DNA from: Pseudoclavibacter caeni
Lineage (GTDB): Bacteria; Actinomycetota; Actinomycetes; Actinomycetales; Microbacteriaceae
Assembly: GCF_008831125.1 (NCBI RefSeq)
Contig: NZ_WBKA01000002.1
Span: 124,001 to 188,000 of the forward strand
Length of the DNA: 64,000 nucleotides
Direction: 5' to 3'
A model generated the notes under the pieces. That model was not told the origin of the DNA. It did no database searches and saw only the letters and a program-made list of their open reading frames with translations. Position 1 is the stretch's first letter, and the number at the start of each line of letters is the position of its first letter. Shown piece after piece: positions 38,612 through 46,214 of the stretch. A program made the position numbers and the translations under genes.

Positions 38612-40076
38612 TCAGCGCAGCGAGAGCGCCCGCGTGTTCGCGGCGACCGGCGCCGGCAGGACGGTGTCGCCCTCGAGGAAGCGGTCGACCTGGGCTGCGG
38701 CCGCACGGCCCTCGGCGATCGCCCAGACGATGAGCGACTGGCCGCGGCCGGCGTCGCCGGCGACGAACATGCCCTCCTCATCGGTGGAGTAGTCGGGCCG
38801 TCGAGCGATCGTGCCGCGGCCGGTCACCCGCAGGCCGAGCTGCTCGTCCACGCCACCGAGCTCCGGGCCGACGAAGCCCATCGCGACGAGCACGAGATCG
38901 GCGGGGATGTCGTGGCTGGTGCCGTGTCGAGGGCCGCGCGTGCCATCGGGCAGGTATTCGGTCTCGGCCAGCCGCAGCGTGCGGACGTGGCCGTCCTCGC
39001 CGATGAGTTCCTCCGTGAACGCGAGGAACTCCCGGTCGAGACCGTGGGCCTCGCCCTCCTCGTGCGAGGTGGAGACCTCGAACAGCCTCGGCATCGTCGG
39101 CCAGGGCTCGTGCTCCGAGCGGGTGATGCCGGGACGACGGCCGATGGCGAGGTTCGTCACCGACCGTGCACCCTGGCGGATGGCGGTGCCGATGCAATCA
39201 GAGCCGGTGTCGCCGCCGCCGATGACCACGACGTCCAGCCCCTTCGCGTCGATCGGGTCGGCGACCTCGTCGCCGGCGACGGCGCGGTTGGCGCGGGTGA
39301 GATAGTCCATCGCGAAGTGCACGCCGTCGAGATCGGCGCCGGGCACGGCCAGCGGGCGCGGGGTCGTCGACCCAGTCGCGATGACGATCGCGTCGAACCG
39401 GTCGCGCAGCTGCGGCCAGGTGACGTCGCGGCCGACGTCGACCCCTGCGCGGAATCGGGTGCCCTCGGCCATCATCTGGTTGAGCCGCTGGTCGAGCACG
39501 CGCTTCTCGAGCTTGAAGTCGGGAATGCCGTAGCGCAGCAGGCCGCCGATGCGGTCGTCGCGCTCGTAGACGACGACGGTGTGCCCGGCGCGGGTCAGCT
39601 GCTGGGCGGCGGCGAGCCCGGCGGGCCCGGAGCCGACGACGGCGACAGACTTGCCGCTCAGTCGCTCCGGCGGATGGGGCTCGACCCAGCCGCGATCGTA
39701 CGCCTGGTTGATGATCGACACCTCGATCTGCTTGATCGTCACGGCCGGCTGGTTGATGCCGAGCACGCACGCCGACTCGCACGGCGCCGGGCACAGCCGC
39801 CCGGTGAACTCCGGGAAGTTGTTCGTCGCGTGCAGGCGCTCGATGGCGTCCTTGGGCAGCTGCCGCCAGGTCAGGTCGTTCCATTCAGGGATGAGGTTGC
39901 CCAGCGGGCAGCCGCTGTGACAGAACGGCACGCCGCAGTCCATGCAGCGCGAGGACTGCTCCTGCAGCTGCAGCGGATCCTGCCGCTCGTAGACCTCGCG
40001 CCAGTCCTGGATGCGCACGTCGACGGGGCGGCGGCTCGCGGTGGCCCGACTGCGGATGGTGAGAAAGCCGTGCGGA

Positions 40077-40084
<8 letters not shown>
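38612..40084 (-). CDS. gltD: Glutamate synthase small subunit
   Basis: The 490-residue NADPH-dependent subunit passes electrons to GltB. The N-terminal 4Fe-4S cluster cysteines are visible in 'CMDCGVPFCHSGCPLGN' and 'CPAPCESACVLG', followed by an FAD Rossmann motif 'VAVVGSGPAGLAAAQQL' and an NADPH motif 'VVVIGGGDTGSDC', with the closing 'FVAGDAGRGQSLIVWAI'. ATG 40084 gives the usual 'MADPHGFL' start and overlaps the gltB stop by 8 bases. Confidence 0.97.
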
Positions 40085-44672
<4,588 letters not shown>

Positions 44673-45200
44673 GTGGACTCCTTCGTGCGCACGGAACGGC
44701 GGGCGGAGGAGTCGGCGCACGGGGTTCACGCCGCGAGCCTCGACTGTCGGCGAGGACAGGTCTCGTGGACCCGCTCGCGACGCCGTCGGCCTGGACTGGT
44801 GGCGACGACGCCCGTCATTCACGGTCTGGGAGAACAGACGCTACCCAATCTGTGTTTCCGGATGTTTCCCGGGATGTTTCGGGAATGTTACACGGGGCTG
44901 TGCGGGAGCGGGAGCGGGTCATGAGGTGTGTGGTTGGGCGCCAGGTGCGGGACAGGCCCGGGTGCGGGTCGGAAACGGCTGGACCGCGGAAGGGCACGAC
45001 CACGAACGCGCCAGGCTCCTACCGGGCAGCCACCTGCGTGCCAGAGGGTGGTGCGGAAGCGGTCGAGTCAGATCGCAGTGGCGCAGCCGTGGTCGGACGT
45101 GGTGCGTGCGGCACGGCCCCTCCGCTGATCGGCTGCGGGACTCCCCTGCTCCGCTGGTCGACGGCGGCCCCGTCGGATCGGCGAAGACCCTGCTGCCGAA
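44673..45200. other. Intergenic region between gltB and lgt (528 bp)
   Basis: The left third is the gltB leader (about 160 bases), followed by the promoter and half-site array at 44838-44891. From 44900 to 45200 I found no gene, no strong hairpin and no known RNA motif. A lone GGAAAC near 44972 is not paired with a second half-site. The lgt transcript must end somewhere here. Confidence 0.55.
44838..44891 (-). promoter_or_regulatory. GlnR-type operator array and promoter of gltBD
   Basis: Reading the minus strand, GTAAC (44891-44887), GAAAC (44880-44876), GAAAC (44868-44864) and GAAAC (44858-44854) follow one another with spacers of 6, 7 and 5 bases, about one helical turn each. The first pair is exactly the GlnR consensus GTNAC-N6-GAAAC. 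TAGCGT (44843-44838) is a possible -10 box 10 bases downstream of the last half-site. GlnR is the global nitrogen regulator of many actinobacteria. Confidence 0.75.
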
Positions 45201-46214
45201 TCAGTCGCGGGCCGAGTCTGTGGGCGCTGACGTGCTGCGCTCTCCCGACGCGGTGGCGGCAGAGGCATCCGATGCGGTGGTCGCGGTGCCTTCTCCCTCG
45301 GCGAGGGCGACGTCGGCCGCGTCCTCGAACAGCTGCTCGCCGGCGTCAGGCTCGCCCTCCGCCGCGGCGATCGCCGCCAGATGTCTCGGCAGGTAGGGGC
45401 TCGGCTCGAGGCCCGGATGGCGGCGCGCCTGCACGACCATGAGGATCAGACCGATGATGACGACGAGGATGGCGGCCCACTGGTTGACGCGCACGCCCAG
45501 GTACACCTCGGAGGGATCGAGGCGGATGCCCTCGATGAAGAAGCGGCCCACGCCGTACCAGATCAGGTACAGGCCGAAGGTGCGCCCCCACTGCAGCAGG
45601 AAGCGGCGCCCGGCCCACAGCAGCACGAACACGCCGAGGAGATCCCACAGCGACTCGTACAGGAAAGCCGGATGGAAGAGCGTGCCGGAGGGCAGCCCGA
45701 TCGGGAACGCCGCGTTCGAGCTCGGGATCTCGATGCCCCAGGGCAGGTCAGTCGGCGTACCGAACAGCTCGTTGTTGAAGTAGTTGCCCCAGCGGCCGAG
45801 CGCCTGGGCCAGCAGCACGCCTGGTGCGGCCGCGTCGAGCAGTGCGGTGAACCGCAGCCCGGCCAGTCGGCAGCCGATCCACGCGCCGAACGCACCGAGG
45901 ACGAGCGCGCCGAAGATCGCGAGCCCGCCCTCCCAGACGTACAGGAAGCGGAACGGGTCGCCCGAACCGGTGAAGTAGTCGCCCGGGTGGGTGAACACGT
46001 GATAGAGACGCCCGCCGATGATGCCGAGAGGCACCGCCCACAGGGCGATGTCGAGGATCACCCAGCCGTCGGCGCCCCGCCGCTTCAGCCGCACCCCGGC
46101 GATGAGGCTGGCGAGCACGATGCCGATGGCGATGATGATGCCGTAGTAGTGGATCGTGAGCGAGCCGATGCTGAAGGAGCCGGTGCCGGGGGTGGGGAAG
46201 CTGGCGAGAGTCAC
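45201..46214 (-). CDS. lgt: Prolipoprotein diacylglyceryl transferase
   Basis: The 337-residue membrane enzyme transfers diacylglyceryl from phosphatidylglycerol to the lipobox cysteine of prolipoproteins. It has seven helices and the family motifs 'IHYYGI', 'YVWEGGLAIFGALV' and 'GRWGNYFNNELFG'. The last 60 residues form an Ala/Thr/Ser/Glu-rich cytoplasmic tail, as in other actinobacterial Lgt. The start is GTG 46214, with TAGGAT 7 bases upstream. It follows trpA by 30 bases, a common order, yet has its own leaderless promoter. Confidence 0.97.
   Translation of the reverse strand: MTLASFPTPGTGSFSIGSLTIHYYGIIIAIGIVLASLIAGVRLKRRGADGWVILDIALWAVPLGIIGGRLYHVFTHPGDYFTGSGDPFRFLYVWEGGLAIFGALVLGAFGAWIGCRLAGLRFTALLDAAAPGVLLAQALGRWGNYFNNELFGTPTDLPWGIEIPSSNAAFPIGLPSGTLFHPAFLYESLWDLLGVFVLLWAGRRFLLQWGRTFGLYLIWYGVGRFFIEGIRLDPSEVYLGVRVNQWAAILVVIIGLILMVVQARRHPGLEPSPYLPRHLAAIAAAEGEPDAGEQLFEDAADVALAEGEGTATTASDASAATASGERSTSAPTDSARD

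Follow-up and report, generated by a model that had tools for sequence, protein, structure and literature searches.

The window analysed herein, namely the whole stretch of 64,000 nucleotides from Pseudoclavibacter caeni, holds on its minus strand the two genes of glutamate synthase, and the region upstream of gltB carries a phased array of short half-sites followed by a predicted -10 hexamer. The features are listed below with their positions in the window.

38612 to 40150, minus strand: gltD open reading frame, glutamate synthase small subunit (TIGR01317, 642.4 bits)
40077 to 44672, minus strand: gltB, glutamate synthase large subunit (NF008730, 1649.7 bits)
44673 to 44837, minus strand: stretch from the -10 hexamer to the ATG of gltB, without Rfam match
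44838 to 44843, minus strand: predicted -10 hexamer TAGCGT (TANNNT), spaced N10 as in the glnA promoters of relatives
44854 to 44858, minus strand: half-site b2, GAAAC, placed 22 bases beyond b1, with 10 bases left to the -10 hexamer
44864 to 44868, minus strand: third half-site, GAAAC, which takes the a2 slot but sits one base nearer to the -10 hexamer
44876 to 44880, minus strand: half-site b1, GAAAC, starting 11 bases from a1
44887 to 44891, minus strand: half-site a1, GTAAC, present in all four genus genomes examined and in G004, a member of another genus of the family
45201 to 46214, minus strand: lgt, the upstream neighbour in the same direction (TIGR00544, 173.2 bits)

Read on the gltB strand from 44891 down to 44838, the layout is GTAAC-N6-GAAAC-N7-GAAAC-N5-GAAAC-N10-TAGCGT, where the half-sites start 11, 12 and 10 bases apart and so occupy slots 1, 12, 24 and 34, with the hexamer at 49. 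A first-pass annotation of this DNA had given the same half-sites, the same spacings and a TAGCGT box after 10 bases, and it is exact to the base; its statement that the first pair is the exact GlnR consensus is confirmed as well, since GTAAC-N6-GAAAC at 44876-44891 is a perfect a-b pair of the form GTnAC-N6-GAAAC. Further half-sites phased at about 11 bases follow this pair, with b2 placed 22 bases from b1. In slot 3, however, where the a-b-a-b order calls for an a-type site, a displaced GAAAC is found, which overlaps the calculated -35 position (bases 26-31, given a 17-base spacer). An a-type site in this slot was not taken as defining for a GlnR box, because published work describes the slot as dispensable and not conserved. 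The ATG of gltB, at 44672, lies 166 bases 3' of the hexamer, and the true start of gltD is probably later than that of its open reading frame, because the frame overlaps gltB. A search of 44500-45500 against Rfam with E values up to 1 returned zero matches, and therefore no known riboswitch or leader family is found in this region.

Across the 2.06 Mb genome there are 8 exact boxes (GTAAC-N6-GAAAC), of which the gltB site is one, whereas the reversed pattern occurs 0 times; with the looser GTNAC-N6-GAAAC the counts are 13 and 1. Three of the 8 stand before the core targets glnA (TIGR00653, 635 bits) and amtB (TIGR00836, 370 bits) and before gltB, and five are at other loci. Outside the window, a 28 kb region (G000:C1:486148-514059, where G000 is the window's own genome; loci L001-L004 and L208) holds four exact boxes and one GTTAC variant. 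By their Pfam families, the genes near the exact boxes there are an amidohydrolase, a flavin/NAD oxidoreductase and a class V aminotransferase, and one exact box stands at the FAD-binding subunit of a molybdenum hydroxylase followed by its 2Fe-2S subunit; we infer from these names that the four boxes probably serve a GlnR-controlled breakdown of purines or allantoin. Another locus (L008:1490-1516, near 165079 of G000:C5), flanked by an ion channel gene on one side and an EamA-type transporter frame on the other, reads GTAAC-N6-GTAAC-N6-GAAAC, that is, three perfect half-sites 11 bases apart.

For comparison with relatives, a weight matrix was built from chosen sites at the glnA and amtB genes of genomes other than the window's own. 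Setting aside the window's own two regions, 58 glnA and amtB regions were considered, of which 46 (24 glnA and 22 amtB) built the matrix, while 12 failed the selection rule and were dropped; all the following counts of slots and spacings rest on these 46 selected sites. In 23 of the 24 glnA sites the fourth half-site is followed, after exactly 10 bases, by TANNNT, and in the remaining one after 11. The gltB site thus shares the register of the glnA promoters of its relatives, with only slot 3 off, by one base; a GAAAC within one base of slot 3 occurs in none of the 46 glnA and amtB sites. As for amtB, none of the 22 selected sites has TANNNT within 24 bases, and the looser YANNNT appears at a distance of 10 bases in 10 of the 22 and of 11 bases in 1. 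A scan with the full matrix recovers 29 of 30 glnA boxes and 30 of 30 amtB boxes, a result that is partly circular as the same sites built the matrix, and glnA was therefore also scored independently, by a matrix made from the 22 amtB sites only.

The regulator expected to read such sites is present in the genome. In fact, seven stretches match the OmpR-type DNA-binding domain, and one of them, G000:C1:75501-76166, is glnR, the gene on whose presence the first-pass annotation had made its reading depend. Its best solved relatives are 8hig (239 bits) and 8hih (236 bits), whose names in the table are just OmpR-family regulators and which we take to be GlnR structures; the segment FGGTRTVDVHVRRLRAKLG in its DNA-binding domain is identical to both of them. 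The chain 4o1h, named GlnR in the table, matches the product at 73 bits. Among 59 genomes, the own one included, 53 have a strong glnR match (at least 210 bits), and in the other six (G008, G018, G030, G037, G041 and G049) no such match was found. With the amtB-only matrix, the glnA box is detected in 46 of the 50 glnR-bearing genomes (29/30 and 17/20) versus 1 of 5 without the gene (Fisher p 0.001). Four of the 50 fall below the cut-off despite having glnR (G046, G054, G056 and L155), of which the glnA region of L155 is borderline (p 0.017 with 120 shuffles). The glnA locus L139, close to a contig start, carries a full box of 35.1 bits. A full glnA box is also seen in G049 (L215), a 500-contig draft where glnR was not found, and its glnR may lie in an assembly gap.

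Other OmpR-type proteins could in principle recognise these sites instead. MtrA, which might read the gltB site in place of GlnR or compete with it there, has an orthologue in the genome (closest solved chain 2gwr, mtrA, 275.9 bits), and a coelicolor study by Zhu in 2019, which reportedly points the same way, was counted in favour of MtrA. A match to mtrA at the cut-off is found in 57 of 59 genomes, the own one included, although that of G047 (193 bits) may be a paralogue. But all five genomes without glnR in the above test, which scored the box of glnA and not that of gltB, carry mtrA, and across genomes the site does not follow this gene: since the box is present in 1 of these five against 46 of 50 with glnR, the glnA box follows glnR and not mtrA. 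A reading by MtrA is hence unlikely, and additional binding by MtrA in competition with GlnR would be compatible with the glnA co-occurrence data. A further candidate is the OmpR-type protein at G000:C1:177145-177798 (L014), with a GlnR-like DNA-binding domain and without an ordinary receiver domain. It is found at cut-off in 35 of 36 family genomes and in 2 of the 23 from outside the family, and could be a regulator peculiar to the family. Its recognition region, TIDVHVRRLRAKLGDF, differs little from the TVDVHVRRLRAKLGDL of GlnR, which would allow it to read sites of the gltB type; however, proteins of this type are present in G008 and G030, both with neither a detected glnR nor a glnA box, and are missing in 18 tested genomes of other families, 13 of which have the box nonetheless, so that this reader is very improbable. 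Both MtrA and the GlnR-like paralogue were set aside as readers of the site on this co-occurrence evidence, and GlnR is kept.

The remaining question is how far the gltB box is conserved, and whether it could be a chance resemblance within a GC-rich intergenic region. A gltB gene is present in 51 of the 59 genomes, the own one included, and 8 of these 51 have the box at p < 0.01 (5/30 and 3/20, plus G056, which was scored without a box), namely the four genus genomes, G004, and G039, G057 and G048 from other families. Within the family (G000-G035) the box is found in 5 of 32 genomes bearing gltB, and outside the genus and G004 in none of the 27 tested. When 80 further gltB loci of named genomes were taken, one of which was too short and was dropped, 1 of 79 passed, marginally (L072, 8.1 bits). 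The top matches to the window's gltB in named genomes carry, almost without exception, the label of Microbacteriaceae or of one of its genera, which points to this family. Therefore the box is not a general feature of gltB, and taken together with the glnA counts this suggests that among these relatives glnA boxes are nearly constant while gltB boxes come and go. That the box is absent from most gltB genes tested in the family, and that its half-sites are short, would both speak for chance. Nevertheless the gltB site scores 38.4 bits, a value that was never reached when the 300-base region was shuffled 5000 times at dinucleotide level (best 17.9), and it is the top match on both strands of the 64 kb window, where the best score elsewhere is 8.5 and two weaker matches (10.5 and 9.1) overlap the site itself; moreover, a box in promoter register is kept before the same gene in all four genus genomes examined, as it is in G004. 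A coincidence of this kind is hardly credible. The conservation in close relatives, on which the first-pass annotation had also staked its reading, is thereby found, and predicted GlnR control of gltB is well supported by the glnR gene, by the boxes kept within the genus and by a register common to this site and the glnA promoters of relatives, but no box is found in the 27 other gltB-bearing genomes of the family that were tested.

The site is very likely an activating-type GlnR operator at the gltB promoter. Under nitrogen limitation, the presumed signal, GlnR would bind a1-b1 and b2 head to tail, and a further protomer would probably occupy the displaced third half-site or a position close to it. 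The bound GlnR would then replace the missing -35 element, as the third half-site lies over -35 and b2 stands 10 bases before TAGCGT, and would recruit RNA polymerase, so that gltB and probably gltD would be transcribed. The direction of control might also be the opposite, since GlnR represses some genes, for example gdhA (PMC5826061), and would then act as a repressor at gltB. Against this, the 10-base distance to the -10 hexamer equals that of the glnA boxes of relatives, and in M. smegmatis glnA1, gltB and gltD are reported as up-regulated by GlnR (PMC3662644), so repression is improbable here and activation is the preferred reading. In two loci from another family (L189 and L192, of G057 and G039), GTAAC-N6-GAAAC before gltB stands 6 bases, rather than the usual 10, from TACAGT or TAGAGT, and this shorter distance could mean repression.

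As for the order of the half-sites, the a-b-b-b array which the first-pass annotation had pointed out is real in this genome but is not kept within the genus, where half-site number and spacing differ among the gltB promoters. In G002 and G003, GTAAC is located at 1, 12 and 33, so that b1 reads GTAAC; in G001 and G004, GTAAC at 1 is followed by GAAAC at 12, with an extra GTCAC further downstream in both and an extra GTGAC in G001. What is common to all five promoters (four genus genomes and G004) is a half-site 10 bases (11 in G004) before TANNNT. When 22 bases (12-33) are removed from the G000 promoter, its identity to G001, which is shorter by about 22 bases here, rises from 21/40 to 29/40. 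These extra bases amount to two b-type units, and all three b units start with GAAACA, the first two with GAAACATCC. It is plausible that the G000 lineage gained two units, because the 22 bases correspond to b-type units with shared starts; a loss of 22 bases in G001 is a conceivable alternative. The identity to G000 is 82% in GlnR for G002 and G003 and 73% for G001, and at the start of GltB it is 77% for G002, 77% for G003 and 74% for G001, which hints that G001 is more distant, and therefore, as far as pairwise identities rather than a tree can tell, the gain is favoured. We tentatively propose, as a rather doubtful possibility, that the operator began with two half-sites, the state seen in G001 and G004, and reached four by a b-type gain of 22 bases or two helical turns, with the proximal distance to -10 kept at 10, and that the resulting row of b-type sites after a single a-type one would make gltB respond to lower or more finely graded amounts of GlnR than the promoters of its relatives do. 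Graded or cooperative binding at the a-b-b-b array, to which the first-pass annotation had linked the order, is a conceivable but weak reading. The coexistence, within one genus, of promoters with two and with four half-sites whose distance to the -10 is equal offers a ready-made experiment on the role of additional half-sites.

For one genus of Microbacteriaceae, the probable GlnR regulon is thereby extended to glutamate synthase. Literature searches for GlnR with Microbacteriaceae or Microbacterium returned, among the records and excerpts they covered, no GlnR study in this family, and one lake community study with Microbacteriaceae names GlnR once. GlnR control of gltB in other actinobacteria, on the other hand, is already published. 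For example in M. smegmatis GlnR controls gltB, and gltB and gltD are raised (PMC3662644); in Saccharopolyspora erythraea direct control of glutamate synthase by GlnR is described (PMC10704036); and in S. venezuelae the glutamate synthase promoter is bound by GlnR, with GTAACCTGCACGAAAT given at Sven_1677, although the expression change tabulated there is only -1.1 (PMC3087709). The same regulator and the same target are therefore predicted for our site as in these three species, while the S. venezuelae table gives a single a-b pair and the gltB site has four half-sites.

With respect to architecture, the actinobacterial glnA operator is described as a1-b1-a2-b2, that is, gTnAc-n6-GaAAc repeated (PMC10704036), and in the complex of GlnR with RNA polymerase (Shi 2023) four GlnR DNA-binding domains are arranged head to tail (PMC10704036). 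Like that operator, the gltB site has four slots of about 11 bases on the coding strand, an exact a1 and b1, and b2 placed 22 bases from b1, and like the glnA promoters of relatives it has N10 before a TANNNT hexamer; unlike the glnA operator, its slot 3 lacks an a-type site and has a GAAAC, shifted by one base, in its place. At the amtB promoter of S. coelicolor, b2 is reported as essential and a2, at the -35 position, as dispensable (PMC5826061), and a2 is dispensable at the nas promoter of A. mediterranei too (PMC5826061; PMC10704036). The gltB site resembles the former in its a1-b1 core plus b2 with the a2 slot at -35, though S. coelicolor amtB has a further box upstream, and the latter in that about 16 bases intervene between b1 and b2; it differs from both in that its a2 slot is not degenerate, being occupied by a good b-type half-site displaced by one base. 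In M. smegmatis, half-sites moved three bases apart or together bind more weakly (PMC3662644). Because a2 is dispensable at S. coelicolor amtB and at the nas promoter, the a-b-b-b array is best read as a four-slot operator of the canonical kind whose least important slot holds an atypical half-site, and compared with these known systems the gltB site is unusual only in the composition of its array and in its variation within the genus.
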